Assembly: GCF_003574655.1 (NCBI RefSeq)
Contig: NZ_QNUM01000004.1
Span: forward strand, 1 to 64,000
Reading direction: 5' to 3'
Source of the DNA: Cohaesibacter haloalkalitolerans
Lineage (GTDB): Bacteria; Pseudomonadota; Alphaproteobacteria; Rhizobiales; Cohaesibacteraceae
DNA: 64,000 nt
Position 1 is the stretch's first letter. Each line of letters begins with the position of its first letter. Both the position numbers and the translations under genes were made by a program. Positions 1 to 33,680 of the stretch are shown one piece after another. Under the pieces are notes generated by a model that worked only from the letters and a program-made list of their open reading frames with translations, did no database searches and had not been told where the DNA came from.

Positions 1-570
1 CACCTTCGAGGATGACGGTCCATCCATCACCCGCAATGCCACCGCCGTCCCGACCCTGGTCACCGACGACAGCGCCCTGGCCTCCGGCAATCTGGATACC
101 GGCGCCGAGCAGACAACCGACAGCGCCTCCTTTGCGGCCCTGTTCGACAGCGTCTTTGGCGCCGATGGCGGCAAGGATGATGACGATGATGGCGTCGCCG
201 ACAGTGATGCCGTCCGCTATCAGATGGCCATCTCGACCTCCGCATCCGGTCTCGTCGACAGCCTCACAGGCGAAGCGGTCACCCTCAGCATCAATGCCGC
301 TGGGACCCTCATCACCGGCGCATCCGCAACCGGTGGCACCGTCTTCACCATCAGCCTCGATCCCGACACCGGCACCATAACCCAGACCCAGATCCGCGCC
401 GTCGAGCATGACGACCCGGCCGATCCGTCCGAGGCAACCGCACCATCCGTCCTCTCCGGCGTCTCCATCACATTGACCGCCACCGTCGAGGATGGCGATG
501 GCGATACCCAGTCGGCATCAACCGACATCGCAGCCGCCTTCACCTTCGAGGATGACGGTCCATCCATCAC
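1..570 (+). repeat. Direct repeat, 540-bp period, inside the giant repeat protein
   Basis: Bases 1-30 are identical to bases 541-570, giving one repeat unit of 540 bp (180 residues). Identity at the DNA level, third codon positions included, points to recent duplication or gene conversion among repeat units that extend upstream of the window. Confidence 0.85.
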
Positions 571-15247: not shown

Positions 15248-16534
15248 TTATTGTTCAACTCCTTCAATTTCAGACCCATCACTTTTGTCGCCGTGAAATC
15301 TCTGCGTCATGTTTCCTCCCAGTTTAGAGTTTGTCAGAGGCCTCAAATCATCGATTGTGGCATCCAGTTCCGGATCCTTTTCGAGCACCAGAAGCGGTTC
15401 AAGCCAGGCGATCTGATACTTCTTCTGTTCAAGAAGCCCGGACTTGACCGTTTGCTGTTTGTCTGTCTTTTCTTCCACAAGCTCCGGCTTTTCGATGGCG
15501 CGCAGCGAAAACCTCGCAGCCATGATCAGGCGATCCATGTAGGGTTGGGGATTGAGCTTGTTGACCTCTTTTAGCATGGCGGTTGCCGTGACCATCGGAG
15601 CGATAGCGTGCAGCTGATAGTGCAAGGCATATTTGCCGCGGCGCATTTCCATCGGTAGACTGCCATCCGGATCAATGGTATCAAGGATCACCCGGTGGCT
15701 TTCCAACCCCCAGTCGATGAAGCTCTCATTTTCAACGATGAGGCCGATCTGGATCAGGGCAAGTGCTGCCCATGCTCTCAGATTGCCCTTGCTTGCCATC
15801 GGAGGCCCATCGGTTTCCCAGAACTGGATGATGGCGTGCCCCAGTCCGGTCAACCACTGCTCAATCGTTTCTGTGCTTTGCAGATAGTCTTCCGGCACAG
15901 ATACAGGCACGGACACGGCGGCAGGTAGCGGTGCGGTTTCAGGTGAAGGCTCACCGTCTGTGACAACAGTCTCTTCCGTGGCGACTGCTGGCTCGACCTT
16001 TTTGGAAAACTGCAATCGACCAATGATTGCGGCGTCCGCTGTCGGCTCCTCAGCCGATTGGAGAATGAGGGATTTCAGTTGGGCGTAAGCAATCGCAATG
16101 CCCCCAACGCGCGAGGCATAGGACAGATTTGCTGTCAGGCTGTCGATTTCACTGAAGGAATCCGCTTCAGCCCAGTCATCAATTGCATCGATGGCACACC
16201 GGACAATGTCGCTTCGTTGCGATGGTGTGGTCCGCGCCTTGTCAGCCAGACTGGACAGGATCTGGACAAATCGATCCGAAGGGGCAAGCGCCTCGTTTAC
16301 AGCGGCATTTGCTTCTGCATCAATGTCCGAACGAGACTTGCTGTCGTCCTTGTAACGACTGCCATAGCTAAGAGAAATCGTGGCTTCAGGAAACTCGGGA
16401 CAGACAAATTTTTCCGTTTCAGCGTCAGGCGCATTCGACGCTGCCTGGGCAACAAGGCTTGTGAGCAGCAGTGGAGCTGCGAGCAATGACGCTCGCCCTC
16501 CCTTGCTGATTAACTCTTTCATGCACTGTACCAT
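15248..16534 (-). CDS. AlgL-like periplasmic protein (PL5 fold), catalytic histidine replaced
   Basis: 428 residues with a Sec signal (about 1-31). It follows AlgL of Pseudomonas along most of its length: CPEFPEATISLSYGSRY near the N-terminus, IEQWLTGLGHAII, FIDWGLESHRVI, and DGSLPMEMRRGKYALHY near 289-306. In AlgL the motif NNHxYWAAW carries the catalytic Asn-His. Here it reads GNLRAWAAL (250-258), with Leu252 in the His position; Tyr306 of ALHY is retained. A Pro/Ala-rich insert (about 160-222) is not in AlgL. In Pseudomonas AlgL clears stray polymer from the periplasm. This protein may instead bind polymer or have changed chemistry. It is the last gene of the alg operon, 7 bp after the Sel1 protein gene. 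The start is uncertain (ATG at 16534 or 16522). Confidence 0.8.
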   Translation of the reverse strand: MVQCMKELISKGGRASLLAAPLLLTSLVAQAASNAPDAETEKFVCPEFPEATISLSYGSRYKDDSKSRSDIDAEANAAVNEALAPSDRFVQILSSLADKARTTPSQRSDIVRCAIDAIDDWAEADSFSEIDSLTANLSYASRVGGIAIAYAQLKSLILQSAEEPTADAAIIGRLQFSKKVEPAVATEETVVTDGEPSPETAPLPAAVSVPVSVPEDYLQSTETIEQWLTGLGHAIIQFWETDGPPMASKGNLRAWAALALIQIGLIVENESFIDWGLESHRVILDTIDPDGSLPMEMRRGKYALHYQLHAIAPMVTATAMLKEVNKLNPQPYMDRLIMAARFSLRAIEKPELVEEKTDKQQTVKSGLLEQKKYQIAWLEPLLVLEKDPELDATIDDLRPLTNSKLGGNMTQRFHGDKSDGSEIEGVEQ

Positions 16535-16541
16535 GCTGGTT

Positions 16542-19346: not shown

Positions 19347-19368
19347 GGTAACGATCTCCTGTTTCCGG

Positions 19369-20001
19369 TTAGCGGGCTATTTCATTACGAACCGAGCGCA
19401 GCATGAATTGACCATCGCGACTTTCCGCAATGATCGATGTGCCGCTCCCACGCTCCAGCAGAACTTTTTGAACGGTTGCCTGCGCAGCCCCATTGGCCAT
19501 CGCCGAAAAGTCAAGCGTCAGAGGTGCCTTCAGCTGAACCGTTTGCGCATGCCCGGACGCCAGAGCCGAAACGGCATTGGCCTTTGCCTGCGGCACATAG
19601 AAATCAAGCGCCGTCACATCGGACATATTGTAAAAGCTCAGGCTGGCTTTGGCCGGATTGACGGCAATCTGGTCGTCAATCACCGACAGGTCGTCGGACT
19701 GGTTCAGAACGATGGTGTAGAACTTGCCCGGCTTGGCATCGACCGAGCCCTCCTTGTCGCCAATCGCGACATCAATGGTGCTCGGCGAGACGACGATGTA
19801 AGGAGAGACGCCATTCTCCAATTGCGGGAAAACCTTGCTGGCGATGCGCACTGCGGTCGTTTTGCCAACGAGAACTCTCACGAAAGAAGAATTCGGGTCG
19901 AGCGCCTTGCCATAAAGGCCCGTGTCATTTGCCTTTGCACCGCTGGCTGCAAGCACAATGGAGGTCATGAGGAAGAATGCGAAATGAAATGTCTTAAACA
20001 T
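19369..20001 (-). CDS. algF: AlgF-like periplasmic protein of polysaccharide O-acetylation
   Basis: 210 residues with a signal peptide (about 1-24). The segment DTGLYGKALDPNSSFVRVLVG resembles AlgF, which begins its mature part with LYGP...STFVRVYN, and the LNQSDDLSVIDD region also fits. AlgF works with AlgI, AlgJ and AlgX in alginate acetylation in the periplasm. The ATG at 20001 was chosen over the TTG at 20028 because AAAGGG lies 9 nt before it and the signal peptide then starts correctly. It follows algX closely, as in the Pseudomonas acetylation gene set. Confidence 0.85.
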   Translation of the reverse strand: MFKTFHFAFFLMTSIVLAASGAKANDTGLYGKALDPNSSFVRVLVGKTTAVRIASKVFPQLENGVSPYIVVSPSTIDVAIGDKEGSVDAKPGKFYTIVLNQSDDLSVIDDQIAVNPAKASLSFYNMSDVTALDFYVPQAKANAVSALASGHAQTVQLKAPLTLDFSAMANGAAQATVQKVLLERGSGTSIIAESRDGQFMLRSVRNEIAR

Positions 20002-20015
20002 GATCGTAGCCCTTT

Positions 20016-21335
20016 TCAGTATGAACAAAGTTGAAGTTCGCTCCCACCTTCGGGAGGTCGGTCAAAAATCAGCTTCAAGCTCGTGATTGGAGCCTGCTCA
20101 AGCGGTTGCAATGGAAAATAGAAACGGCCCGTCGCGCGCAGCCGGTCGCCACGCAGCATCGAGATTGTGCGGTGCTGACCGTTTGCCAATGCCGCATCGA
20201 CTTTCAAGTCACGGATTGTCTGGTCCGGGGTCTCAACCATCACCGCCTGATCGGGGGTGACCTCTACAGACGTGAGATCCACGACAAATTCATTCGGTTG
20301 ATCGTCAAGACCCTTTGCTTCCAGTGCCGGCTGGCAGGTCTGGGAAGCAGCGGCCAGCAGCTCGACCCATGGGGCCGGCCCATATTGGCCCAGATTGTTG
20401 TAGATCGGATTCTCCCAAATCAGAAACCGTGGCCGGTTTTCCTGAAACTCCCGGGAAGTCATGTAGGAGAGAATGGAGCCGAACTGGTTGCCGCCGGAGA
20501 TGGCATAGTTGGTGAGCGCCAATGAGCTGTACTGGCTGATAAAGCCGCCGAAATTGCCAGCCTCAGCGTTCGACATGCTGGTCCCCACCAGCGCAATCGG
20601 ATCTGTCGCCTCGGCACCGAAAAGGTCTAAACTGCCGGAGGACTGATCAGCCTTTGTGGTCTCATAGGCCATGCTTTCAACGGCTGGCAGCGAGTCTTTG
20701 CAGAAGCGTTGCAGATTGTTGCGCAACGTCGAGAAGGACACAATGCTCTCCAGTTCCCTGGTCTTGAACTTGGTCTTCTTTGCCGAGGCATATTCAGGCT
20801 GGGCCTTGATCACATCCGCAATTGCCTCAGCCGCCAGACGTGCCCCTTGTGCCGTCCAGTGAAAATCTGAACGGAAGAACAGGCCATCGTGAGACTTGGC
20901 AGCAATCATCGGGCTCTGCAGATCGGCAGCCACCACATTGGCCGCCCTCAACCGGTCCACAACGGTCTGATAACTCTGAACAGCAAGCTCTCGCGTGTAG
21001 CCATAGAGCGCTGCGGAATCGGGCAGGAACTCCGGCATGGCCTGACTTTTGGTCGGAACGGGCGCATAGATGAGGGTCGTGCCCTTGGCCTTGAGCATCT
21101 CCGACAACCGCGCGAGATTCTCGATGGTCTCGTCCGAGAAGCTGTGATGCATCCTCAGATCCGTGTAAATCCGGTAGAAATAGCCGGACTTCCCCTCAAT
21201 GGAACGGGGTTCCGCCATGTCTTCAAGATGTTTGCACCCAAAGGCCGAAACGGAAAGATCGCCTTTCGCCTCGGCATCTCCCGAAAAGAGGAAGGTGCAC
21301 ATACAGACTGCAAATAAAGGTTTCAAATCAATCAT
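20016..21335 (-). CDS. algX: AlgX-like alginate O-acetyltransferase
   Basis: 439 residues with a signal peptide (about 1-23). An SGNH-hydrolase-like domain carries the Asp/His motif RSDFHWTAQGA and the nucleophile block GTSMSNAEAGNFGGF, matching the Ser/Asp/His triad of AlgX. The C-terminal region (about 320-439, with cysteines near the end) corresponds to the AlgX carbohydrate-binding module. It transfers acetyl groups to the polymannuronate chain in the periplasm. All catalytic positions I can check are present. It sits downstream of the small Sel1 gene in the alg operon. Confidence 0.9.
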   Translation of the reverse strand: MIDLKPLFAVCMCTFLFSGDAEAKGDLSVSAFGCKHLEDMAEPRSIEGKSGYFYRIYTDLRMHHSFSDETIENLARLSEMLKAKGTTLIYAPVPTKSQAMPEFLPDSAALYGYTRELAVQSYQTVVDRLRAANVVAADLQSPMIAAKSHDGLFFRSDFHWTAQGARLAAEAIADVIKAQPEYASAKKTKFKTRELESIVSFSTLRNNLQRFCKDSLPAVESMAYETTKADQSSGSLDLFGAEATDPIALVGTSMSNAEAGNFGGFISQYSSLALTNYAISGGNQFGSILSYMTSREFQENRPRFLIWENPIYNNLGQYGPAPWVELLAAASQTCQPALEAKGLDDQPNEFVVDLTSVEVTPDQAVMVETPDQTIRDLKVDAALANGQHRTISMLRGDRLRATGRFYFPLQPLEQAPITSLKLIFDRPPEGGSELQLCSY

Positions 21336-21352
21336 GATGCAATACTCGTCTT

Positions 21353-22177
21353 TCAGGTTTCCTCGCCCAGATCTTGAGGCTGATTTATAAGGCGGCGCAT
21401 ATTCTTGGCCGCGGCACGAATGCCGAAATCCTCACTGCGATCTGCAACATCCAGATAGCGTTTCACTTCCTCTTTCTCGTTGGGCAGCAGGGGCTGATGG
21501 GAGGCGATGGACGCAGCCAGACGCAAAGCAATCCTGTCGTCATAAGCGGATGTATCAACCCGTTTCATCAGCTCCGTCGCAAGATCGGGTTTGGCACCAA
21601 AAGGCGAGCCAGATTGATAGAACTGGGCCAGTGCCAGCAGTGCCTTTTGATCGCCGCTTCTGGCTTGTCGCAAAAGCGCCTCTTCCAGATGCTTCAGCCT
21701 GCTGTCTGAGAATTCAACACTCTGGTTCTGCAGGATCTTGACCAGAGGCTGCACGGCATAGCTGCGCCCGTCGTATGCTGCGATGGACAGATAATGGGCA
21801 ACATCGGAGAGTATGTCGTTGCGCCCCATTCCCATCAGACGCTTGGCAAAGCGATAGGCTGCCAGTCCATCCCCGGTATCGGCAAGCTCGCGCAGATCCT
21901 TGTAGGAAACATGCTGTTTGCTCACCAGCCGCCTGCGGATTTGCTTCAGCCGATAGCCATCCAGATTCAAGGCCGATGACATCTGGATCCGTGAAGGCAG
22001 GATTTGTTGCCCGGCGCCAGCCGCTTCTTGCAACTGCGGCAGGTTAAGCGGACCTTGGTTCGCTGCGGTATCTTTTGGCAGACGCGCAGCATTGGTTGCA
22101 GCATTCGCAGCTTCAACGCTGGCAATCGCCACGATTGCAGACAGACATAGCACCGTCTTGAGCTTAGGAATGGCCAT
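21353..22177 (-). CDS. Small Sel1-like periplasmic repeat protein of the alg operon
   Basis: 274 residues with a signal peptide (about 1-26, ending NAA). The rest is alpha-helical with degenerate Sel1/TPR repeats (AAYRFAKRLMGMGRNDI, GDQKALLALAQFYQSGSPFG, IALRLAASIASHQPL). It overlaps the algJ stop by 14 bp and precedes algX. It has no counterpart in the Pseudomonas operon unless it and the 934-residue protein together do the job of AlgK. A role as scaffold for the acetylation or export complex is inferred from position only. Confidence 0.75.
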   Translation of the reverse strand: MAIPKLKTVLCLSAIVAIASVEAANAATNAARLPKDTAANQGPLNLPQLQEAAGAGQQILPSRIQMSSALNLDGYRLKQIRRRLVSKQHVSYKDLRELADTGDGLAAYRFAKRLMGMGRNDILSDVAHYLSIAAYDGRSYAVQPLVKILQNQSVEFSDSRLKHLEEALLRQARSGDQKALLALAQFYQSGSPFGAKPDLATELMKRVDTSAYDDRIALRLAASIASHQPLLPNEKEEVKRYLDVADRSEDFGIRAAAKNMRRLINQPQDLGEET

Positions 22178-23333
22178 TGCTCTGCTCCTTTGCCAACAGC
22201 TTCAGATCAACCGTTTTTGCCCCAACCGACGCTTCGCCATCTGACTGCGGCTTCGTATCCCAGATCCCCTTCTGTGCCAGATAGCGGGTCGGGAACTCCC
22301 AGATAACAACCTCGGGCGGGCTATCCCTCAGCACTTCGCCTTGCAGGAAGGCATACATCGGAGCCCCCGGCCCCTTTGCCTTTTCAGCAAGGTTCAGGAC
22401 ATCGGCTTTAAGATCCTTTTTGAGGAATTCGGCAAAAGACCAACGCGTATCTGCGCTGTAGCTTGTGCCAATGAGCACCACCGGAAAGCTTTCATCCGAG
22501 CCGAACAGATCAACCGCAGAATTATCGGCTACCTCTTCTTCGGCCCGCCAGATTCTGGTGTGTTCCTGATTGATACCGGCCAGCTCTCCATAGTCGCTTC
22601 CGGTCACAAAGTTGACGAGGTCACCCCAGAACGAGGTGTCTTCAGCGCTGAAAAGCTTGAAGGATTTGCTATCAATGTCCGCTGGCAGGATCATTTCCTG
22701 CTCAATGGCGGCCGCCACCTTTTCTGCCCCCAGCGGTGTCCAGTGAGTGTCGGTCTTGAAAAAGACCTGCCCTTCCGCCTTGGCAGACATCATGGTGCTG
22801 CGCGTATCGACAACCTCAATGCCCTGAGACTGCAGACGCGACACGAAATGGCGATACTGGCTGATGGCGTTCGACGTGTCCGAAATGCTCCCCAGATGCT
22901 CCGAATAGATGTCGGATTTCTGCGGCAAGGGAACAACGACAAGCTTGATGTTGCGGCTTCCAAGTTCATTTCTTACCGCAGCGATTTCGGCAACCGACCG
23001 ATCAATCAGCGGCTCGGAATTGATGTCTGGCCCGAACTCTTCCTCGGTGAAAAACCACTCGTCATCCCCGACGATCACGCCTTTCTTGCCGACACCGAGT
23101 GCCAGATAGCGGGCTGCGCCCAATAGGCCGACAGCAGGTGCCCTGTGCGGCAGACTGGTCTTGTAGATCTCTTCAAATTCCCGGGTCAGACCGCCTTCCA
23201 TGAGGCTCAGATCATCTGTGCCTTTCAGCCTGGTTTCGTCATTCAGAAACAGGCTCGCATTGGCATAGACGGCATACCCAATGAAAAGCGCCGGAGTCAG
23301 AAGACGAAAAGCATTTGCGATCTTTACAATCAT
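22164..23333 (-). CDS. algJ: AlgJ-like alginate O-acetyltransferase, membrane-anchored
   Basis: 389 residues. One N-terminal membrane anchor (about 11-29) is followed by an SGNH-like domain with the motif KTDTHWTPLGA and the serine block GTSYSADTRWSF. AlgJ passes acetyl groups from the membrane protein AlgI towards the polymer. It lies 9 bp after algI, the usual algI-algJ pairing. The catalytic motif is intact. AlgJ and AlgX are homologous. The anchor and the position next to algI argue for AlgJ, and the C-terminal module of the 20016-21335 gene argues for AlgX there. Confidence 0.88.
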   Translation of the reverse strand: MIVKIANAFRLLTPALFIGYAVYANASLFLNDETRLKGTDDLSLMEGGLTREFEEIYKTSLPHRAPAVGLLGAARYLALGVGKKGVIVGDDEWFFTEEEFGPDINSEPLIDRSVAEIAAVRNELGSRNIKLVVVPLPQKSDIYSEHLGSISDTSNAISQYRHFVSRLQSQGIEVVDTRSTMMSAKAEGQVFFKTDTHWTPLGAEKVAAAIEQEMILPADIDSKSFKLFSAEDTSFWGDLVNFVTGSDYGELAGINQEHTRIWRAEEEVADNSAVDLFGSDESFPVVLIGTSYSADTRWSFAEFLKKDLKADVLNLAEKAKGPGAPMYAFLQGEVLRDSPPEVVIWEFPTRYLAQKGIWDTKPQSDGEASVGAKTVDLKLLAKEQSNGHS

Positions 23334-23342
23334 ATCTTTCTC

Positions 23343-24815
23343 CTAGAACTGGAAGTAGAGGAAGGGTGAGAAGCTTTGTTCAGCCAGTTTTGCCACCGCA
23401 AGAACCAGCAACGCACTTGTGGCCAATGTCAGAGACATCGAGCGAATAGCGGGAAGCACGACAGTTTGGGACGTGCCCGGCAGGTCGCGGCCGACCATCA
23501 CGCCCCCTCCCGCCTCATCCTTGTCCGCAGAGCTGAACCAGCTCTGCAACTTGCCCTCGGATGCAGCAATCAGGGCACTGATGCAAAGGAAGATGAAAGC
23601 ATCCTGCGGAAGCCCAATGAGGAAGTCCGGGCGGATTGCAAAGCCATTGGCACCAACGAGACCGGCATAGATATCCATTGCAGCACTGACGGTTTCCGCG
23701 CGGAAAACGACCCAGCCGATCATGACGATCACAAAGGTAAGAGGCAGCGAGAACCAGACGCCATCGGCTTTCTTGACCCAGCCGGTCATGCGCTCAAGCG
23801 CCAGCCAACCACCGTGCCAGGCTCCCCAGATGACGAATGTCCAGCTGGCTCCATGCCACAGGCCTCCCAAGACCATCACGGTACAGAGGTTCAGATAGGT
23901 CCGGTAAACCGAGCCGCGGTTGCCCCCGAGCGGAATATAGAGATAGTCACGCAGCCAGACCGACAGCGAGATGTGCCACCGTCTCCAGAACTCGGTGATG
24001 GAACGGGAGATATAGGGGCGATTGAAATTCTCGATGAAACGGAAACCGATCATCATCCCCAACCCGATGGCCATATCGGAGTAGCCGGAGAAGTCAAAGT
24101 AAAGCTGCAACGTATAGGCAACGGCGCCCAGCAGCGCCTCGCCAAAGGTCGGATCGGCCGAAGAAAAGGCAGCATCGGCAATCGGGGCAATGCTGTCAGC
24201 CAGCAGGATTTTCTTGGCGAGCCCAATGGTGAAGCGGGTCATGCCATCTGTGAAGAGCCGCACACTGTGTTCACGATAGACGATCTGGTCCGCAAGGTCC
24301 TTGAAGCGCAGGATCGGGCCCGCGATCAACTGCGGGAACAAGGCAATGAAGGCGGCAAAATCGATGAAGCTTTTCGTCGCGGGCGCGTCGCCACGGCGAA
24401 TATCGACCAGATAGCTGATCGACTGGAAGATGTAGAAGGAAATACCGATTGGTAGGATAAGACGCCAGTGCACCCCCATCTCCTGCGCAGACGTGCCAGC
24501 AAGGGCCGCAAAGCTGTCGAGGAAGAAATTGAGGTATTTGAAGACGCCCAACACCAGCAGGCATCCGATCACACCGATCGAACAGAAAAGCTGCTTTCTG
24601 GCTTCACTGGTCGCAAGCTGGATCTTCAGGCCAAGTCCGTAGGTCCACAGAGTGACCAGGAAGAGCAAAAGGAGAAAATCGACCCGCCACCAGGCATAGA
24701 AGACATAGGACCCCAGCACGAGGGTCCAAGAGCGGAATCTGGCGGGCGTTATGTAATAAAACGCCAGAAACAGCGGCAAATACAAAAAAAGAAATTGTTC
24801 TGATGAAAATACCAT
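23343..24815 (-). CDS. algI: MBOAT-family alginate O-acetyltransferase AlgI
   Basis: 490 residues with 10 or more hydrophobic segments. It starts with the AlgI signature VFSSxxFLFxxLPxxL and contains PIGISFYIFQSISYLVDI, YFDFSGYSDMAIGLG, the EFWRRWHISLSVWLRDYLYIPLGG block and LGGLWHGASWTF, which carries the invariant MBOAT histidine. It moves acetyl groups across the inner membrane for polymer modification. It is in the same transcription unit as algJ. The C-terminus is slightly shorter than in Pseudomonas and includes a polar loop. Confidence 0.95.
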   Translation of the reverse strand: MVFSSEQFLFLYLPLFLAFYYITPARFRSWTLVLGSYVFYAWWRVDFLLLLFLVTLWTYGLGLKIQLATSEARKQLFCSIGVIGCLLVLGVFKYLNFFLDSFAALAGTSAQEMGVHWRLILPIGISFYIFQSISYLVDIRRGDAPATKSFIDFAAFIALFPQLIAGPILRFKDLADQIVYREHSVRLFTDGMTRFTIGLAKKILLADSIAPIADAAFSSADPTFGEALLGAVAYTLQLYFDFSGYSDMAIGLGMMIGFRFIENFNRPYISRSITEFWRRWHISLSVWLRDYLYIPLGGNRGSVYRTYLNLCTVMVLGGLWHGASWTFVIWGAWHGGWLALERMTGWVKKADGVWFSLPLTFVIVMIGWVVFRAETVSAAMDIYAGLVGANGFAIRPDFLIGLPQDAFIFLCISALIAASEGKLQSWFSSADKDEAGGGVMVGRDLPGTSQTVVLPAIRSMSLTLATSALLVLAVAKLAEQSFSPFLYFQF

Positions 24816-24823
24816 TTTGACAC

Positions 24824-26419
24824 CTAGAGCTTGCAGCTTTCCAGATTGAGAAGAACAAATTGGCGCCCCCCGCCCTCTCTGACAGCGGTTGCAGCAGAGC
24901 TGGAGGTCGTAAAGATGCCCGCAACACCTGTATCAAGCTTGCCTGCGCGGGCCAGATATTGCGGCAGATTGCGTTTCAGCTCGCCTGCGAAAAGAACCGG
25001 CAGTTGTCTGGAAAAATCATTTCCGGTCATTTCGAGCTTGGGTGAATGACGCGCCAGAACACCTGTCTGATTGTCAATAAAGCGGTTCTGTTTCAGCAAA
25101 TGGCGGTCATCTGTAGCAATGCCACCAACGATGGCGATGGCTGCCCCACCATTGCCAACAATCAGATTCTTCTGAAACTGCATTGCGAGGCTGTTGGTCG
25201 CTGCGATGCCACCCTTCCCATTCTGATAGATCGAGTTCCCGGAAATTTCCGAACAGGCCGCCCCCTCAAGCGCAATGCCATCCTGAGCATTGTCCAGTAG
25301 CAGATTGTCAGAGATTTGCGCCCTGGAGACACCGCCGGAGGCATAGATCCCGGCCCCCCGCCCACCCGAAATCACGTTGCCACTGATCATCAGATTTTTC
25401 GGATTATCGGTCAGATGCACACCGTGATGGCGGCTTCCTACAATGATGTTGTTGCGCAACTGTCCGCTTTCGACATTGCGAACGCGAATCGCGGAATCCT
25501 CGCTATTGATGATGAGATTGTTCCGGATATCGATCTGTTTCATGCCGATCATCTCGATGGAGCCAACATCGAGAATGCGGTTCGCAACCAGCCGCGTGCG
25601 GGTCTGAATCGGAAACAGCAGATTGGAAACCACGTCAATGCCGCGCATATAGGTGCGATCTCCAAAGCCAAGGTTCGAGAGCTTGCTGCCAACAATGTCC
25701 ATTCCCCCACCGAGGGCCGTCAGGATAAACGGTTTGAACTCCCCGATCCTGTTGCGCTGATTGCTGCCACTAAGCTGCGCCTTGACGATTGAGAGATTTC
25801 CGATATTGAGGACAAACACACCTTCACCGGTCGACAGAACCAGGGTTTCCCCGGCGTTGATCTGCAATTTTGCAGTCGACATGATGAAAAGGGGATAGTG
25901 CAAACTGTATTCACCATCGACCTTGCTCAGCGCTTCGGTATTGCCCGCCTTTTCAAGAGCAGAATGAATATCGTCCAGCGAGAAGGCCCCGCCCTGCAAG
26001 GTCAGGACAGGTTGGCCCGGTCTCGGATTGGCTTTGAGCAAATCGGGATGGTGCTTGTCGCCCATCTGCTTTTTGACCTGACCGAGCACAAGATCCAATG
26101 GAAGGAAGTCAAGACGTTGTTGTTGCTCGGTCTTCTTGCCGCCGACAACAGCGGGCGACGCCAGGTCTGCCTCCTCCAGGTGCCAGCTACCGGGCACCAG
26201 GGTCGGCACGATGTGCGACACTGCGTCTGACACCGCCTGCATATCCAGATCCGGCGCCAGAGCCAATTGTTGCTTGAGCCCGCGGACATCTGCCATAGGG
26301 TCGGGAAGTGCGCGCAAGACCTCCTGATCTGCGCGCGCACAGACCCCTTCCCCAGGCAACAGAACAGGAGCCGCGGCAGCCACAATGAAGGCCAATGTCC
26401 GGATCAGGCTGCGCATCAT
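24824..26419 (-). CDS. algG: AlgG-like right-handed beta-helix protein, DPHD motif absent
   Basis: 531 residues with a signal peptide. The central domain (about 190-470) is a right-handed parallel beta-helix with N-x-I-x-x-N-G-type rungs (ISGNVISGGRGAGIYASGG and similar), as in AlgG, the periplasmic mannuronan C5-epimerase. The family's catalytic DPHD motif is not present anywhere. The nearest equivalent, GSRHHGVHLTDNPKN (about 25397-25441), has the histidine in a different setting. By position (between algA and algI) and fold it is AlgG, but epimerase activity is doubtful. It may bind and protect the chain, a role also known for AlgG. It overlaps the algA stop by 4 bp. Confidence 0.82.
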   Translation of the reverse strand: MMRSLIRTLAFIVAAAAPVLLPGEGVCARADQEVLRALPDPMADVRGLKQQLALAPDLDMQAVSDAVSHIVPTLVPGSWHLEEADLASPAVVGGKKTEQQQRLDFLPLDLVLGQVKKQMGDKHHPDLLKANPRPGQPVLTLQGGAFSLDDIHSALEKAGNTEALSKVDGEYSLHYPLFIMSTAKLQINAGETLVLSTGEGVFVLNIGNLSIVKAQLSGSNQRNRIGEFKPFILTALGGGMDIVGSKLSNLGFGDRTYMRGIDVVSNLLFPIQTRTRLVANRILDVGSIEMIGMKQIDIRNNLIINSEDSAIRVRNVESGQLRNNIIVGSRHHGVHLTDNPKNLMISGNVISGGRGAGIYASGGVSRAQISDNLLLDNAQDGIALEGAACSEISGNSIYQNGKGGIAATNSLAMQFQKNLIVGNGGAAIAIVGGIATDDRHLLKQNRFIDNQTGVLARHSPKLEMTGNDFSRQLPVLFAGELKRNLPQYLARAGKLDTGVAGIFTTSSSAATAVREGGGRQFVLLNLESCKL

Positions 26420-27855
26420 GCAACCTCTTCGGCGCGGACGTCGACGTCGAGAACAGCGGACGGCTGATAGTCGAGAACTTCCTGCCTCTCGACCTTATAC
26501 TGGATCTCGACGATGACAGCTGTCTCACTTCCGGTGTTGCGGAAAGTTGCCTCTTCCCCTTCCTTGACTTCAACAACATCGCCGGGCCTGAATTGGCTGA
26601 GGCCGGCCTTGTTGGTAAAGACCCCCTGCCCCTCGGAGAAGGTCAGCAGGCGGTGATAATGCGCCATTTCATCGAAATGCAACGTGCGGCCAGGCTCGAT
26701 CCTCAGCATGGTCAGGTTGAAACTCTCGCCCGATTGCATCTTGATGACCTGTCCCCACGGCAGCGTCTTGGAGGCATGGGCGACCACTTCGTTGCGGCCG
26801 TCCTGTTCCAGTGTCGAAATGATGGACTTCACCTTCTGACTATGATCATGGGTGGTAACCAGAAGGGCGTCATCCGTGTCGACAATGACAAGATCTTCAA
26901 TGCCAAGCACCGCGATCAGACGGTTTTGCGAGCCGCGAATATAGGAATCCTTGGAGTCGATGCAGACGACATCCCCGGAGACATAGTTGCCCTGCTCGTC
27001 CTTTTCGCTCACTGCATGGAATGCCTTCCAGGCGCCAACATCGTTCCAGTCGATATCGGTTGGTGCAAGAATGGTCCGATCCGTCTTCTCGAAGACGATG
27101 GCTTCGGTCGGTCCGCTCACCGCTCTGGCGAAGTCCTCGCCAGCCAGCTCGAGGCGATCCGGGAAATATTCCGCATTGGAATATGCCGCCATCACCTGCT
27201 CAAAGGACTCCGGATCATGCCTGCGGTACTCTTCCATGATCACATCGGCACGGAACATACTGATCCCCGATGCCCAATAGGCATTGCGGTCGATCATCAT
27301 CTGTTCGGCGATTTCAAACGGCGGTTTCTCGACAAAGCGCGAAACCTTTTGTGCAAAGGCCACCTCTTCATGCGGGCCGCCATCGATGATATAGCCGTAA
27401 CCGGTTTCCGGATAGCGTGGCTCGATGCCGAACAGGGTAATCTTGCCATTATGAGCTGCCGGTATCATGCGTTTGAGCGCCCTGTTGAGGTCGCCCTTGA
27501 TGATGTGGTCTGACGGCAAGACAGCCATCACGGCATCCGGGTCCCGAAGGGAAAGGTGGATGGCTGCGGCAAGCACCGCAGGCCCGGTATTTCGGCCAAG
27601 CGGCTCGGCAATGATCGTCGCATTGACGTCAATCTCGTTCAGCTGCTGCTTCACCACGCCAAGATGCGATCTGTTCACACTGACAATGGGTTCTTCAAAG
27701 CCGTCTGCAACATGTCTGGCGACGGTGGCCTGAAAGAAGGTGGTGTCTTCAGACCCGCTAATTGGCTGAAACTGTTTTGGGTTATTGGAGCGCGAAAGAG
27801 GCCAAAGGCGCGTCCCCACTCCGCCACACAACACCAATGGATAGATGCCAACCAT
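26416..27855 (-). CDS. algA: Mannose-1-phosphate guanylyltransferase (AlgA/ManC family), isomerase domain degenerate
   Basis: 479 residues. The N-terminal nucleotidyltransferase has GGVGTRLWPLSR (11-22) and FVEKP and makes GDP-mannose from mannose-1-phosphate and GTP. The C-terminal cupin normally carries the type II phosphomannose isomerase metal motif QxHxHRxEHW. The matching region (about 388-405, EPGRTLHFDEMAHYHRLL) lacks the paired His-x-His and the EHW. The isomerase half is therefore probably inactive, and fructose-6-phosphate to mannose-6-phosphate conversion must come from elsewhere. The ATG at 27855 was chosen over the TTG at 27873 because AAGGA lies 8 nt upstream and the family starts just before the GG-x-GTRLWP motif. 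Confidence 0.9.
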   Translation of the reverse strand: MVGIYPLVLCGGVGTRLWPLSRSNNPKQFQPISGSEDTTFFQATVARHVADGFEEPIVSVNRSHLGVVKQQLNEIDVNATIIAEPLGRNTGPAVLAAAIHLSLRDPDAVMAVLPSDHIIKGDLNRALKRMIPAAHNGKITLFGIEPRYPETGYGYIIDGGPHEEVAFAQKVSRFVEKPPFEIAEQMMIDRNAYWASGISMFRADVIMEEYRRHDPESFEQVMAAYSNAEYFPDRLELAGEDFARAVSGPTEAIVFEKTDRTILAPTDIDWNDVGAWKAFHAVSEKDEQGNYVSGDVVCIDSKDSYIRGSQNRLIAVLGIEDLVIVDTDDALLVTTHDHSQKVKSIISTLEQDGRNEVVAHASKTLPWGQVIKMQSGESFNLTMLRIEPGRTLHFDEMAHYHRLLTFSEGQGVFTNKAGLSQFRPGDVVEVKEGEEATFRNTGSETAVIVEIQYKVERQEVLDYQPSAVLDVDVRAEEVA

Positions 27856-27938
27856 TTTTCTCATCCTTATCAATTAAAATGCACAATGTTCGGTCTTTAG
27901 CCCCGCTTGCGACGGTTGGGGCTCCACTTCACTCAGGC

Positions 27939-29048
27939 TCAGAGAACCTGTTTCTTGTACTCATTGAATAAACTCATGAAGGAGACATACCGGCTGTCCT
28001 TGATACGAAGCTTGACCGGCCCCCCCGTGTCATCCAGCGTCAAAAGCCCCTCTGGCGCTGTGAATGTGGCGCGCGTTGCAGTCTGGCCGGAAACGGGAGG
28101 TTTGATGTCTTTGGTCTGCAGGTTGATGGTTCTGCCATCGGCCAGCGTTGCTTCTGCAACACCGCCAAACATCAGCATCTCGGCTTCCTTGTCAGGCAGA
28201 ATGGCCGAAACCTGGATGCCGCTGTCATTGCCCGGGATGTAGGCCAGGTCGTCATCTTTCGCCACGACAGCACCCACCACACTCGACTTCGCCATTGTCA
28301 GGGTACAGTCGCAGGGGTTGACCACGGTCAGTTGACGACCATCTGCCCCCTGAATGGCGATGAGCGGTTCTTCCAGTCCGGCTTGCGGATTGACATAGAC
28401 GATCTGCCCATCGGCTCCGGACCTGATGACCGCGCCGCTTGGCATGACCTTGCCCAGCTTTGGCACGTCCCTGACGAGCAAGCGGTTCTGAACCAGAGAA
28501 CCTGCAAACACCACAAGCCCAACAGTGGCAGCACCAACAAAGGCGGCCCCCACAACCGACTTGAAGCGCTGAACAAAAGACTTTTCGCTGTTTACATCAC
28601 CGGCTGACGCCTTTTTCACCTTGTCTGCGGTGACGCTCAATACATCATTGATGCCAACGACTTCACCCGCGATATAAGCATTCAGGATATAGCGCAGACG
28701 GGGCAGATGAGGCCCGGTCGGATTGAGGAAATCAAGCCGATAACGCCCAGTGATGTCGTCGACACATACCATGACGACCTCGATCGCCATCGTCACCTGA
28801 AACCCATCAAACGGAACGCGGAATGTCGCTGGCTTGATGACCTGACCATAGTCGCGCGAAGCAAGCCCCTTGACATAGGCGTTGACCAGCGAAATGCCAT
28901 TGCCTTCATATTGCCGCCCTTCGATGACGACCGAAAATGGCATCTGCAGCATGGCCTGCTCGCTGACATGATCATCGGAAAGGGATACCCCATCCAGAGA
29001 TTCATAAGGTTCGTGGTCAGTCCGTTTTGTATGATCGTCTATATGCAT
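27939..29048 (-). CDS. alg44: Alg44-like polymerisation protein with degenerate PilZ domain
   Basis: 369 residues. The N-terminal PilZ-like domain (about 25-135) is followed by one membrane helix (about 165-190) and a membrane-fusion-like periplasmic region with the family's PCDC motif. The stretch YILNAYIAGEVVGINDVLS closely resembles the end of the Pseudomonas Alg44 PilZ domain. However, the c-di-GMP contacts RxxxR and DxSxxG are missing: the region reads SEQAMLQMP (29-37) and GISLVNAYVKG (51-61). In Pseudomonas Alg44 must bind c-di-GMP for alginate to be made, so control here is likely different. The ATG at 29048 was preferred over the TTG at 29063. Confidence 0.85.
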   Translation of the reverse strand: MHIDDHTKRTDHEPYESLDGVSLSDDHVSEQAMLQMPFSVVIEGRQYEGNGISLVNAYVKGLASRDYGQVIKPATFRVPFDGFQVTMAIEVVMVCVDDITGRYRLDFLNPTGPHLPRLRYILNAYIAGEVVGINDVLSVTADKVKKASAGDVNSEKSFVQRFKSVVGAAFVGAATVGLVVFAGSLVQNRLLVRDVPKLGKVMPSGAVIRSGADGQIVYVNPQAGLEEPLIAIQGADGRQLTVVNPCDCTLTMAKSSVVGAVVAKDDDLAYIPGNDSGIQVSAILPDKEAEMLMFGGVAEATLADGRTINLQTKDIKPPVSGQTATRATFTAPEGLLTLDDTGGPVKLRIKDSRYVSFMSLFNEYKKQVL

Positions 29049-29064
29049 GGCAATAATTCCCAAT

Positions 29065-30534
29065 TCAAACGAGGCCGGTGATCCAGGAAACTCCCAGCGC
29101 CAACCAGCAGAAGGTCAGCCCCTGAAGAAACCAGGAAAATGAATTTGATTTCATAAATTGAGTTCGAACAGCGCGTGTCGTGTTCTGATGCGTTGTGTTC
29201 TGGCGCGTCCATTTTTGCTTATCGAGCCGAAACAGGATGTAGCTCTTGACCAGCGCGCCAAATGTTTGACTGAAATAGAGCAGGAACGGATAGGTGATCG
29301 GAAACCCGCCCTCCCGGAACGAGGAAATCAGCAGGCAAAACAGGTATCTGGTGAGCATGACCCATGCGAGATAAAGCAACAGCACGAGCGGATCGACCAG
29401 AATGGCAGCCAGAAGCAACCCCAGGGGGCCAGCTAGGGTCGTCCACATGGACAGGCGCTGATCGAGGATGGACCACCAGGTAAACAGCCCGATGCGCCTC
29501 GGCCCGAGAGACAGGGCCCGACCGTTGGTTCTGAGCATATTACCGAACCAGCGCGTCATCAGGGTGATCGCCGAGTCAAAGAAACCGTCCCGAGGCTGGG
29601 TTTCAATGGAGAGCGTCTTCACATCCGGAAGATAGCCCATCTTGTAACCATTGCGCAGCAACCAGTACCAGGTGGACTTGTCGTCACCGGTGAGGAAATT
29701 CACCCGCCCCAGACGCCAGTGGTCGATATGGTCGCTTTGCACCGCCTCGATGAATTCCGCGTTGGTTGCCAGATCGGCCCGAAAGACAGACATCCGACCG
29801 GTCAGCGTCAGAACCCGCTCGCTGATGCCCATGGAACACATCATCATTTGACGTTGAGCAAACCGAAGATTGAACCAGTCCCGGAACAGTCGCCCACCCG
29901 TGGCTTCCGACGTTTCATCCGTCGTCATGGCGCCATAGCTGGGATCGAGGAAGTAGGGCGCTGACCGATCAACCACATCGACCGGAACGCAGCTGTCTCC
30001 ATCGACGAAGATGACGATGTCGTTACGCGAAGGGTAGTGTTTGGCGATGGTCCTCAAAGAGGTAGCCAGAGCATCGCGCTTTCCGGTCCCTTCAATCCTG
30101 TCGAAAATCAGCTGCACACGGCTCATATCGAGAGGCATGGAGGCAAAGGCACTCTTGATCAGACGGACATCCGAAGCATCTACAACAGACGCCACGATGG
30201 TTGCCCCGCCCTTGGAGTGCGCCGCAGCGGCAAAGATCGAGCGATAGACACGGGCTGAAATTTCTGGCGCAATCTTGAAAGTTGTCGTCAGAAAAAAGGC
30301 GTGAGCCCGTGTGGGTTTGGCAAAATAGCGTTCCTCGGCGACCTTTCGCCGCCGTGGAAACACAACGCGTTTGTACCAGAAGGCACGAAGGAAGTTCGTT
30401 GCGGCCCAACTATACCGCCAGGCTCCGATGATCCCGAGGACAACGACCGCGCCAGAAGCATTGGTGCTGACTTCCATTGGCACGGCCAGAGCCAGGATCA
30501 ACATTACCGATATATATGCAATGTGAGCCAGCAT
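29065..30534 (-). CDS. alg8: Alg8-like polymannuronate synthase (glycosyltransferase family 2)
   Basis: 489 residues. N-terminal membrane helices are followed by a GT2 domain with VDGDS, the acceptor/catalytic block TGDDKSTW and a product-site-like RWFGNMLR, and then C-terminal helices. It polymerises GDP-mannuronate and pushes the chain across the inner membrane with Alg44. All GT2 motifs I can check are intact. The start at 30534 was chosen because GAGG lies 8 nt before this ATG and it follows the algD stop by 10 bp. The ATG at 30564 lacks a ribosome site and would overlap algD. Confidence 0.93.
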   Translation of the reverse strand: MLAHIAYISVMLILALAVPMEVSTNASGAVVVLGIIGAWRYSWAATNFLRAFWYKRVVFPRRRKVAEERYFAKPTRAHAFFLTTTFKIAPEISARVYRSIFAAAAHSKGGATIVASVVDASDVRLIKSAFASMPLDMSRVQLIFDRIEGTGKRDALATSLRTIAKHYPSRNDIVIFVDGDSCVPVDVVDRSAPYFLDPSYGAMTTDETSEATGGRLFRDWFNLRFAQRQMMMCSMGISERVLTLTGRMSVFRADLATNAEFIEAVQSDHIDHWRLGRVNFLTGDDKSTWYWLLRNGYKMGYLPDVKTLSIETQPRDGFFDSAITLMTRWFGNMLRTNGRALSLGPRRIGLFTWWSILDQRLSMWTTLAGPLGLLLAAILVDPLVLLLYLAWVMLTRYLFCLLISSFREGGFPITYPFLLYFSQTFGALVKSYILFRLDKQKWTRQNTTHQNTTRAVRTQFMKSNSFSWFLQGLTFCWLALGVSWITGLV

Positions 30535-30544
30535 CGTCTCATCC

Positions 30545-31864
30545 TCACCAGCAAATGCCTTCATAATTGCCGTTGGACTTCACCTTGTTATCAAGGCGAG
30601 CCAGATCGACCATTGGCACTCTTGAGGCTGCCCTGGACAGAGGCTCGACGACTTCGGAGTATTTGTTGCCCACCAGCAGAATGTCGGACTGGTCGATCAG
30701 GACATCAATCGAGCTGACCAGCCTTGCTTCCAGATTTTCGACATAGTCATTGCCGCGACCAGCGCCACTCATCGCCTCGTCATAGGCTTCCTGGACATAT
30801 GGATCGTAGATCTTCAGGTCATACCCCTTCTTGATCAACCGATCGGCCAGCGCAGCCAGAGGACTTTCTCTCAGGTCATCAGTACCGGCCTTGAAACTGA
30901 TCCCGACCATGCCGATCGAGCGGCCCACCAGATTGTCGACAAGATGTTCGGCCCGCCGGATCTGGGCCTCATTCGCGGAAAGAGCGACATCAAGCATGGG
31001 CGATGGGACGTTGTTGGATCGTGCCAGGAAGCGCAGGGCACGCAGATCCTTCGGCAAACAGGAGCCGCCAAAAGCAAAGCCGGGGCGCATGAAGTAAGGC
31101 GACATGTTGACTTTCATGTCCGAACACAGAACACGCATGACCTCTTGCCCGTCGAGCCCCACGGCCTTGGCGATATTGCCAATCTCGTTTGCAAAGGTGA
31201 TCTTGACCGCACGCCAGCAGTTGCTGGTGTATTTGATCATTTCCGCAGTGCGCAGGCTCACAGTGCTGATTTCGCAGTTCAACTGGCCATTGATCTCGGT
31301 AAGAATGTCGTTGGTCTGCTGATCAAGCGCACCAAAGACGATGAGGCCGGGATCGTAATAGTCTTCAATTGCGGTGCTTTCTCGCAGGAATTCCGGGAAA
31401 TAGCCTACGCCGAACTCTTCGCCCGCCGTCAATCCGGAAGACGCTTCCAGAGCAGGAATACAGGACTTCTCCATCGACCCCGGGACAATCGTCGAGCGCA
31501 CGACAACTGAGTGGAATGTATCCTTCAAGGCAAGCGCGCTGCCGATGGCAGTGCAAACGCTCAACACATAGTCGAGCCCGACGGACCCATCCGGTGCGCT
31601 GGGAGTTCCGACACATATGAAGGATGCATCCGTTTCCAGCACCGCCTTGCGGGCATCTGTCGTTGCAGACAGCCGACCACTTGCCACACCCGCAGCGATA
31701 AGCTCTTGCAGCCCATTCTCTACAATCGGCGTTTTTCCGGCGTTGATCGAGTCGACTTTGCTTACGTCGACATCCGCGGCAATGACAGTATGACCGTCTC
31801 TTGCAAGACAAGCTGCGGCTACCGTTCCAACATATCCAATACCAAAGATGCTAATTCTGGCCAC
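30545..31864 (-). CDS. algD: GDP-mannose 6-dehydrogenase
   Basis: 439 residues. The N-terminal dinucleotide motif is GIGYVG. The catalytic cysteine lies in FAFGGSCLPKD (about residue 269; Cys268 in Pseudomonas AlgD), and SFKAGTDDLRESP follows. The protein ends in EGICW, the same as Pseudomonas AlgD. It oxidises GDP-mannose to GDP-mannuronate, the committed step and polymer precursor. It is the first gene of the operon. The GTG at 31864 is the best start: AGG lies 6 nt before it and the protein then begins MARISIFG, like AlgD. The ATG at 31876 is possible but has no ribosome site. Confidence 0.94.
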   Translation of the reverse strand: MARISIFGIGYVGTVAAACLARDGHTVIAADVDVSKVDSINAGKTPIVENGLQELIAAGVASGRLSATTDARKAVLETDASFICVGTPSAPDGSVGLDYVLSVCTAIGSALALKDTFHSVVVRSTIVPGSMEKSCIPALEASSGLTAGEEFGVGYFPEFLRESTAIEDYYDPGLIVFGALDQQTNDILTEINGQLNCEISTVSLRTAEMIKYTSNCWRAVKITFANEIGNIAKAVGLDGQEVMRVLCSDMKVNMSPYFMRPGFAFGGSCLPKDLRALRFLARSNNVPSPMLDVALSANEAQIRRAEHLVDNLVGRSIGMVGISFKAGTDDLRESPLAALADRLIKKGYDLKIYDPYVQEAYDEAMSGAGRGNDYVENLEARLVSSIDVLIDQSDILLVGNKYSEVVEPLSRAASRVPMVDLARLDNKVKSNGNYEGICW

Positions 31865-32557
31865 GACAAACCTCATGTTTTGATAGTATTAATTTTTATC
31901 CGATGGCATAAATGCTCTCCCGGAAAGTCATGTCTGTTTCCCGGGCGCTTTAGGCCGAGCCCCTAAATGGGCAAATTTTATGCAAACATTAATCTTCCCT
32001 TAACGATTAGCGCCGGTACATAAAAATACCTAGTCAGAATAAATGGAACTCCTGTAGGGAAAATCCTTTCTCACGTCTTTTCAAACAGTTAACGGATAAT
32101 GTCGAGATAGGTGAAATTCAACATCGCCACAAGCGACACTTCCTCGATCAGTGAGAGATTAAAAAATAGGCAGCGATTTTGGGGGAAGATATATATCAGA
32201 TTGCTTCAAACTGACTAAGACGCCAATTTCAGTGACTTAGAATGATTTTTCACAGATCGCAGTATTTAACATGCTGCTTTTGATTTACATCATTATTGCT
32301 AATAATAAAGTCTTGACAATCAGATATTTAATTCTTGAAGTTGGTTGAAAATTCAATTAATTTCCAGTTCGATTATCGAGAGATCGGCATCAATCCTTGG
32401 AAAGAAGGAAGAGAAAATATCTTACTTTCGTCTTTTCCGGACAGCCATTTTGATCAATTTGCCAACCTCACCTTATTTTGTGCGCTCTGCTTATTTAGTT
32501 TTTTTCAATATTATTTTTGTACAAGGAAGCGAGTCACAACACGAGAGGAACCTGGCT
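31865..32557. other. AT-rich regulatory region between the alg operon and the 60-residue gene
   Basis: About 690 bp, clearly more AT-rich than its surroundings, between the algD start and a divergent small gene. It holds an exact CtrA-type box at 31989-32004 and a TTGACA at about 32313. Reading frames here (from 32335 and 32345) continue into the small gene but have no ribosome site at their starts. I see no RNA gene. Confidence 0.6.
31989..32004 (-). promoter_or_regulatory. CtrA-type box upstream of algD
   Basis: TTAATCTTCCCTTAAC matches TTAA-N7-TTAAC, the full consensus of the alphaproteobacterial cell-cycle regulator CtrA. It lies about 125 bp upstream of the algD start, in the only promoter region of the 12-gene operon. 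The match is exact. Binding is inferred. Confidence 0.6.
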
Positions 32558-32993: not shown

Positions 32994-33680
32994 CTATGAG
33001 TCGAACCATCCGTTGGTAACGGCATAACGTACGATGGACGCCCTGTCTGTCAGTTGCAATTTGTTCATTGCACGGTTCTTGTAGGTCTCGATGGTCTTGA
33101 TGCTCAAATTCAGATTGGCAGCAATTTCCTTTGAGTAGTGCCCGAGAGCGACCTGATGCAGAACCGTCTTTTCTCTTTCACTCAAGATGCTCATTTCAAT
33201 CTGATCGTCGTCATCGCCATCGCAGTCGGCATTCGTCAGACGCGCCTGTTCGTTTGACCGCATGGAAATATTGGGGTCGATATAATTCCCGCCATTGGCA
33301 ACAATTGAAATCGCATTGACGAAGTTCTGGGAGGTGACCGCCCTGCTAAGAAAAGCATAGTTGACCCCGCGTTCTCTGAACATCTGACAGAACTTTTCAT
33401 CTGCATCCAGAAAGACAAACGGCACATTGACATCGAAGCGGCTCAACTGATCTACGAGCACTTCCCCTTCTTCGATATTCTTGATCTTCACCATGACGAT
33501 ATCCGGGTGCAGACTCAGGGCCTGTTCGACAGATGGCCCATTGGTTTCATCCATTGTTCTGACAACAACAAAATCTGTTCCGTTTAAAAGAGCTTTAGCC
33601 CCCTCGAATATCAGTGGCTCGGCGTTAATATAAGCCAGACGCTTCTTGCGTTTTGCATCAAAATTCAAATTCTCAATCAT
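32994..33680 (-). CDS. LuxR-type transcriptional regulator with pseudo-receiver domain
   Basis: 228 residues. The C-terminal LuxR/FixJ helix-turn-helix is canonical (LSEREKTVLHQVALGHYSKE then LNLSIKTIETYKNRAMNKL, about 165-215). The N-terminal half has the layout of a response-regulator receiver, but the phosphoacceptor Asp is Lys65 (PDIVMVKI) and the acidic pair after strand 1 reads Asn-Ala (YINAEP). It therefore cannot be phosphorylated in the usual way and probably responds to protein or ligand contacts. Its nearest large target is the exopolysaccharide operon about 1 kb away, so it is a candidate regulator of it. No sensor kinase gene is nearby. Confidence 0.88.
   Translation of the reverse strand: MIENLNFDAKRKKRLAYINAEPLIFEGAKALLNGTDFVVVRTMDETNGPSVEQALSLHPDIVMVKIKNIEEGEVLVDQLSRFDVNVPFVFLDADEKFCQMFRERGVNYAFLSRAVTSQNFVNAISIVANGGNYIDPNISMRSNEQARLTNADCDGDDDDQIEMSILSEREKTVLHQVALGHYSKEIAANLNLSIKTIETYKNRAMNKLQLTDRASIVRYAVTNGWFDS

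Follow-up and report, generated by a model that had tools for sequence, protein, structure and literature searches.

The window analysed here, a stretch of 64,000 nucleotides from Cohaesibacter haloalkalitolerans, carries a minus-strand alginate-type operon whose AlgG lacks the epimerase motif and whose Alg44 lacks the cyclic di-GMP (c-di-GMP) motifs. Judged from the sequences, the product of the operon is probably an alginate-type chain left as polymannuronate, with O-acetyl groups and without guluronate, the retired enzymes being kept as scaffold. A first-pass annotation of the same DNA had listed twelve genes, proposed an acetylated, non-epimerised polymer made under different control by a distinct alphaproteobacterial system, and called several of the enzymes degenerate. 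The twelve-gene operon was borne out by Pfam and NCBIfam profile searches and by sequence comparison with the PDB, all named genes lying tightly spaced within 15248-31876 on the minus strand (Table 1). As to its interpretation, the distinct lineage, the loss of the epimerase and c-di-GMP motifs and the acetylation residues stand, while the degenerate lyase, the weight placed on isomerase loss and the notion of decay do not.

The operon belongs to a lineage of its own. An AlgG-like search of 81 genomes, including 18 of the window's genus, found the gene in six, all of them among those 18. A phylum-wide Alg8 search gave matches in 24 of 398 genomes, and 16 loci were taken from 15 of the other 23; among named genomes, a further scan contributed the best 80 of 585 confirmed Alg8 loci, so the sample is tilted towards closely related genomes. 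Together with the six loci of the genus, this gave 102 loci for comparison: 55 derived, 39 canonical and 8 fitting neither label. Motifs were scored from alignment columns, and the labels were set from the AlgG and Alg44 states, of which the tree and the AlgL, AlgA and AlgX counts are independent. All 55 derived loci form a single clade in the Alg8 tree (95 rows), with support of 100/100 and recovery in 200/200 bootstrap trees, bearing out the claim of a distinct alphaproteobacterial system. Seven of the 102 rows, distant or uncertain, were omitted from this careful tree; the clade was also recovered in a quick tree of all 102, and Alg8, the basis of both, bears none of the lost-motif traits. 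Its members include Rhizobiaceae, Devosiaceae, Martelella and many Rhodobacterales; among named relatives, Cypionkella psychrotolerans has the acetylating type of operon and Marinovum algicola the non-acetylating one. Two checks had been proposed at the outset. In the first, AlgG was set beside the solved structures 4ozz and 4nk6 and AlgL beside 4ozv; DxHD is missing from AlgG, His202 from AlgL, RxxxR and DxSxxG from Alg44 and the isomerase motif from AlgA. In the second, a survey of related genomes, the same losses occur in every readable locus of the 55-row clade (4 of the 55 loci end with their contig before algX), and for that reason are not put down to chance.

The AlgG-like protein was said to be without DPHD, and it is: DxHD is present in 0/51 derived proteins and 32/32 canonical ones. 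A free motif search found DLHD elsewhere in one derived AlgG frame (L077) and in none of the other 50. At the column of Arg345, an AlgG active-site residue, Arg stands in 4/51 derived proteins (L090, L094, L097 and L126), never in an SRE context, and the window has none. The only polar residues conserved in at least 90% of the 51 are Asn, Cys389, Asp468 and Gln472, none of them at the canonical site. The AlphaFold model of the window protein (predicted local distance difference test, pLDDT, 85.3) has the AlgG structures 4ozz and 4nk6 as its best PDB folds (template modelling score, TM, 0.77-0.79 by target). Since AlgG crystal structures are the best matches, the AlgG fold is kept, and the ratio of nonsynonymous to synonymous substitution rates (dN/dS) places algG under purifying selection in the genus.

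No substitute for the lost epimerase centre was detected in the window genome with either of two tools. The profile NF038177 recovers only the AlgG-like gene of the operon itself, as two fragments scoring no more than 17 bits (cut-off 700). A DNA pattern for Y[GA]xDPH[DE], run genome-wide on 48 derived-operon genomes and 8 chosen canonical controls, matches nowhere in the window genome, in its five operon-bearing relatives or in 45 of the 48 derived-operon genomes overall, and matches once in each of the 8/8 controls. Of its 12 matches, 11 fall within AlgG-type frames that carry DPHD; the remaining one (L195) falls within a weak AlgG-type match carrying DPHE. Each of the three derived genomes in which the pattern matches holds a second AlgG-type frame with DPHD. 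Separately, RTX proteins adjoin four Rhodobacterales derived operons (L070:5037-7445, L074:5282-7363, L079:5645-8053 and L086:4168-6993). Those of L070 and L086 give a sub-threshold beta-helix match, and in a comparison of the L086 protein with the PDB, chains were matched in the RTX part only. The RTX neighbours of L118 and L128 were considered as epimerases and dropped, as they have no DPH motif.

Alg44 has likewise lost the residues that the first reading reported missing, RxxxR and DxSxxG each being found in 0/54 derived proteins and 37/37 canonical ones. In PilZ domains, these two motifs are the ones for c-di-GMP (PMC8461298). The window Alg44 has no credible Pfam family, and a weak alignment (E 0.044) links its PilZ region to 4rt0, a PilZ structure of Alg44. 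A LuxR-type gene lies upstream of algD, in the same place and orientation, in 27 of the 32 acetylating derived loci with room for it, in 1/14 other derived loci and in 0/33 canonical loci. The loss of the motifs and this neighbour are consistent with different control, as had been suggested. Response regulators mostly carry an Asp at the phospho-acceptor position of the receiver domain; the receiver-like domain of the window's LuxR-type protein (32994-33680) reads MVK there, and many relatives read DP.

Acetylation capacity appears intact in the window. AlgI (GLWHGASW), AlgJ (TDTHW and GTSYS) and AlgX (SDFHW and GTSMS) keep their motifs, as first described, and AlgF is present. The AlgX motifs are kept in 35 of the 36 derived loci with algJ, the exception (L080) being a contig end. 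In all 15 derived loci without algI, algJ and algF, AlgX is retained and both its His and its Ser are replaced. D174, H176 and S269 of AlgX are needed for acetylation in P. aeruginosa (PMC4148444). On the Alg8 tree the 15 fall into two groups apart from each other, one made up of Martelella and the other a clade of Rhodobacterales, and AlgF is missing from 13 of their 15 genomes (the exceptions are G480, which holds a second, acetylating cluster, and G517). AlgX has been retained after its chemistry was lost, twice, and this is the strongest sign here of a structural duty of such proteins.

Precursor supply and polymerisation look conventional. AlgD keeps its key motif, the active-site stretch GGSCLPKD aligning unchanged, and matches GDP-mannose dehydrogenase 1mfz far more strongly (E 6.6e-135) than the best UDP-glucose dehydrogenase (6.8e-73); a UDP-glucose dehydrogenase was rejected on that ground, and the precursor should be GDP-mannuronate because AlgD resembles GDP-mannose dehydrogenase. 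Alg8 has the invariant columns of ten aligned Alg8 proteins, canonical ones included, and no PDB match at E 0.001. In AlgA, Pfam recognises the nucleotidyl transferase, with the isomerase cupin under its cut-off. The cupin does lack the isomerase motif, which occurs in 0/50 derived loci. This loss carries no metabolic weight, however, as the motif is present in only 11 of 20 canonical loci (missing in 9/20) and an intact type II AlgA/ManC paralogue with SHHHRSEHW lies on contig C11 of the window genome. With this copy present, a metabolic constraint through the lost isomerase was discarded. No type I isomerase was found in the window genome.

The AlgL-like protein lacks the NNHxYW histidine, as had been noticed: His202 is present in 0/20 derived and 32/32 canonical proteins, the labels being independent of AlgL. 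When the rows are split by the NLR signature itself, the column holds Leu in 50/50 NLR rows and His in 35/35 others, and NLR[A/Q]W was read in all 30 added loci. The residues mutated in 4ozw (H202A) and 7sa8 (K66A) fall in the expected columns of the alignments with AlgL structures. Among the 50 derived AlgL rows (one a duplicate, L142 being the L096 gene), the Lys66 column is Arg in 49/50, Arg249 and Tyr256 are kept in 50/50 and the Tyr259 column is His in 47/49; in the window protein, the residues at the His202, Arg249, Tyr256 and Tyr259 columns are Leu252, Arg299, Tyr306 and His309. In P. aeruginosa AlgL, Tyr256 is the proposed acid/base and Arg249 the neutraliser; R249A and Y256F are not tolerated in vivo, and H202A is inactive in vitro with wild-type behaviour in vivo (PMC8829089). 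Given the invariant Arg249 and Tyr256 and these mutant data, the site is remodelled under constraint, with new near-invariant residues besides the kept pair, and the term degenerate lyase was an overstatement. The model (pLDDT 86.2) has the PL5 fold, with TM 0.83 by target to AlgL 4ozv; its top fold match is the lyase Smlt1473, titled multi-functional. Looked for in 28 genomes whose derived operon is of the acetylating type, the gene was found in 28/28; coordinates worked through by hand place it 12.3-14.4 kb downstream from alg8 in every one (14.0 kb in the window).

The operon is maintained, since gene order is kept in the genus and dN/dS is below 0.17. The 16-gene order from the LuxR-type gene to the HlyD gene is identical in 6/6 genus members with the operon, among them the much diverged G007 (AlgG 34% and AlgD 82% identity), which has all of the losses. 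All 14 genes have dN/dS below 0.17 in four genus pairs; the highest values, about 0.09-0.17, belong to algG and algL and speak against degeneration in the sense of decay. In G013 (L012) algJ is interrupted, tblastn giving two pieces with a best frame of 286 aa against 389, which is either a strain variant or a sequencing error. Rhizobiales bacterium AFS098815 holds a derived (L073) and a canonical (L123) alginate operon in one genome, and would let the two polymers be compared within one strain.

From these data we infer the structure of the polymer, the scaffold role, the control and the function of AlgL as follows. AlgA and AlgD would supply GDP-mannuronate, Alg8 and Alg44 would polymerise the chain and move it across the inner membrane, and AlgI, AlgJ, AlgF and AlgX would acetylate it, with AlgG, AlgX and the large AlgK-like protein guiding it through the periplasm. 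In the ancestor of the lineage, the epimerase centre would have disappeared from AlgG and the c-di-GMP motifs from Alg44, both proteins being retained as conduit structure; after the later loss of acetylation, AlgX would have gone the same way as AlgG twice. The AlgL-like protein, with its PL5 fold and with the acid/base Tyr and the Arg kept in a remodelled site, probably clears or grips stray polymer, and the LuxR-type regulator next door has probably taken over control from allostery by c-di-GMP. A conduit role fits reviews that place AlgG, AlgX and AlgK in a chain-shielding conduit, and the report that mutants of alginate producers without AlgK, AlgX or AlgG release unsaturated oligomers and no alginate (PMC4444821).

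The exit through the outer membrane, a point absent from the first-pass annotation, is less clear. AlgE (PF13372) was found in none of the 18 genus genomes. Among 34 further genomes, it is lacking in 17/18 derived and 10/10 canonical Rhizobiales/Defluviimonas ones (G477 is in both counts), and PF13372 matches occur in 8 of the 34: outside the class, strongly in the Pseudomonas-like G134, G264 and G130 and weakly in G260; otherwise in three alphaproteobacterial metagenome-assembled genomes and, as a weak partial match, in the genome of L077. As canonical relatives are also without AlgE, the missing pore is not special to the derived clade.

Several points weigh against the polymannuronate reading. 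The AlgG and Alg44 counts of derived against canonical loci are partly circular, as the labels rest on them. The AlgG column assignment relies on alignment and model, because homology to Pseudomonas is distant, and the pattern Y[GA]xDPH[DE] is blind to DAHD, DTHD and DLHD, forms found in canonical Microvirga copies. The export route is incomplete, since neither AlgE nor another outer-membrane exit was found, and AlgK and AlgG were not co-precipitated in P. aeruginosa (PMC9734138).

The most direct challenge is that guluronate is present after all, made by an unrecognised epimerase, be it a shifted active site in the AlgG-like protein or a secreted enzyme. In addition to AlgG, Azotobacter has seven epimerases that it secretes (PMC4432689), brown algae have a large epimerase family (PMC4444821), and RTX proteins, two of them with the sub-threshold beta-helix match, stand beside the four derived loci named above. 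The conserved polar residues of the 51 derived AlgG proteins, however, all lie outside the canonical site, neither NF038177 nor the DNA pattern found another AlgG in the window genome, and a search at the protein level with the module of the L128 RTX protein, made without a positive control, had no match in 18/18 genus genomes; we consider this explanation unlikely. It is quite unlikely, too, that the backbone is something other than mannuronan, the synthase having been turned over to a different uronate polymer and the enzymes of modification having been lost because of the new substrate. The strongly conserved new AlgL-like signature NLRAW, the His at the Tyr259 column and the multi-functional Smlt1473 as top fold match would suit such a change, but AlgD groups with GDP-mannose dehydrogenase, the operon includes a GDP-mannose pyrophosphorylase, Alg8 has the canonical invariant columns, and in the genus a PL7 alginate-lyase domain adjoins.

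Closer to balanced is the possibility that the AlgL-like protein still works as a lyase, its histidine having moved (to window His309, three positions past the acid/base Tyr306), so that nothing would have been lost on the lyase side. The replacement of His202 by Leu in 50/50 rows alongside His at the Tyr259 column in 47/49, the invariant Arg249 and Tyr256, the kept PL5 fold and the wild-type-like H202A phenotype in vivo point that way, while the lack of detectable H202A activity in vitro (PMC8829089) points the other; we lean only slightly against it. Very improbable is an operon in decay without any product. The algG and algL genes are among the faster-evolving ones and the algJ of G013 is split, yet dN/dS remains under 0.17 for 14 genes in every pair and the 16 genes keep their order in 6/6 loci in spite of AlgG identity as low as 34%.

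Table 1. Genes of the alginate-type operon and its neighbours in the window, with the evidence for each identity
Feature	Coordinates	Strand	Evidence
LuxR-type regulator gene, receiver-like N-terminus, upstream of algD	32994..33680	-	Pfam GerE E 2.5e-16
algD, GDP-mannose 6-dehydrogenase	30545..31876	-	best PDB match 1mfz E 6.6e-135
alg8, mannuronan synthase	29065..30564	-	Pfam GT2
alg44, co-polymerase, PilZ-like domain	27939..29063	-	weak match 4rt0
algA, GDP-mannose pyrophosphorylase, isomerase cupin motif lost	26416..27873	-	TIGR01479 371.6 bits (cut-off 372.95)
algG-like beta-helix protein, predicted pseudo-epimerase	24824..26419	-	Pfam beta-helix; AlphaFold model
algI, MBOAT acetyl transporter	23343..24815	-	Pfam MBOAT E 7e-28
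algJ, SGNH acetyltransferase-like	22164..23333	-	PF16822 E 4.8e-67
small protein, no family match (formerly 'sel1')	21353..22177	-	conserved in derived operons
algX, terminal acetyltransferase, intact triad	20016..21335	-	PF16822 E 2.3e-53
algF	19369..20028	-	PF11182 E 6.9e-12
algK-like Sel1-repeat protein, 934 aa	16542..19346	-	Pfam Sel1; weak NF038194 (AlgK) match E 0.00096
algL-like PL5 protein, NLRAW signature	15248..16534	-	PF05426 E 1.2e-19
PL7 alginate-lyase domain and RTX repeats	13306..14928	-	PF08787 E 2.9e-45 and RTX
ABC transporter, presumed type I secretion	11488..13278	-	Pfam ABC_tran, ABC_membrane; syntenic in 6/6 genus loci
presumed HlyD-type membrane fusion protein	10168..11484	-	open reading frame adjoining ABC gene; syntenic in 6/6 genus loci; name from position and appearance

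In derived loci the small gene (21353..22177 in the window) is flanked by algX on one side and by algJ, or else algG, on the other; the name sel1 given to it earlier is not supported, as Pfam gives no match. For the AlgK-like protein, Sel1-repeat structures are the sole PDB entries among the matches listed.

Directly downstream of the operon lie the RTX-PL7 and exporter genes, which had gone unmentioned. PL7 lyases carry the motifs R(T/S)ELR, Q(I/V)H and KAGxY. The window protein keeps RTELR and KAGCY and has QVR in place of QIH; QVR or QLR is found in 6/6 genus copies (QLR in G007), and the His is kept in 7/7 PL7 copies beside canonical loci. The RTX-PL7 protein may be a weakened or re-tuned lyase. 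As a lineage-wide trait, PL7-RTX with its exporter was rejected: in 13 other derived loci the models used detected neither PL7-RTX nor HlyD downstream of algL, and five of them have generic ABC-gene matches only, at 28-170 bits (L203, with no room, and L212, with 100 useless bases, were left out of this check). Being in 6/6 genus loci and not detected in those 13, these genes look like a genus add-on. At the left edge of the window, a long frame (224-3007) ends in what by eye appear to be RTX repeats.

According to a 2015 review, an organism that produces mannuronan was yet to be identified in nature, chain stiffness being suggested as the reason (PMC4444821). The derived clade offers a direct test for natural mannuronan producers, and is a natural experiment that parts what AlgG and AlgX do structurally from what they do as catalysts. 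We see the case as evenly poised for a fuller proposal, in which guluronate-free alginate would have in this clade its first predicted source in nature: mostly acetylated mannuronan, bare in two branches, passed through a pseudoenzyme conduit (AlgG, some AlgX) with c-di-GMP-free switching and a non-AlgE exit, and with an AlgL re-tooled around a moved histidine for a stiff polymer. If so, wild strains could yield guluronate-free alginate, an alginate synthase without c-di-GMP motifs would be at hand for comparison with Alg8/Alg44, and there would be a missing outer-membrane exit to find. Among the matches listed in the open-licence literature, searched by titles and abstract starts, no description of the derived variant appeared, and excerpts of a paper on Yangia exopolysaccharide (PMC7892980) gave no polymer composition.

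Among known systems, alginate operons of Pseudomonas and Azotobacter have the order algD-8-44-KEGXLIJFA. The derived operon has in common with them the GDP-mannuronate supply, Alg8/Alg44, AlgI/J/F/X and homologues of AlgG, AlgK and AlgL. The window operon differs from them in gene order, in the absence of the AlgG DxHD and the Alg44 RxxxR/DxSxxG, in the failure to find an AlgE, in the length of the AlgK-like protein (934 aa, against 448 positions in the NCBIfam model for AlgK), in the extra small protein before AlgX and in an AlgL with NLRAW. Nearest on the Alg8 tree are the canonical alphaproteobacterial operons (24 rows) of Microvirga, Rhizobium mesoamericanum, R. wuzhouense and Labrenzia alba. 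Like the derived operons, they have a long AlgK-like protein and no AlgE in the 10/10 genomes tested; unlike them, they keep DxHD, the AlgL histidine (in rows with AlgL) and the Alg44 motifs, and have algI/algJ near alg8 in 1/24 only (L119). Outside the class, the G264b (L048) and G260 (L051) clusters also have an AlgG-like protein without DxHD, yet keep the AlgL NNHDYW, the Alg44 RxxxR/DxSxxG and the AlgA isomerase motif; their Alg8 proteins branch with presumed Pseudomonas-like rows, apart from the derived clade, and their epimerase loss is apparently separate from that of the clade. The 'atypical' operons of Bundalovic-Torma et al. 2020 (PMC7112194), as far as the excerpted text goes, include some without outer-membrane or modification genes, and many alg44 and algX clusters; that text describes gene loss and rearrangement, not the loss of catalytic residues in retained genes. 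Though it has neither the epimerase motif nor the c-di-GMP motifs of the alginate family, and no AlgE was detected, the window system, as predicted, would work in the manner of alginate synthesis.

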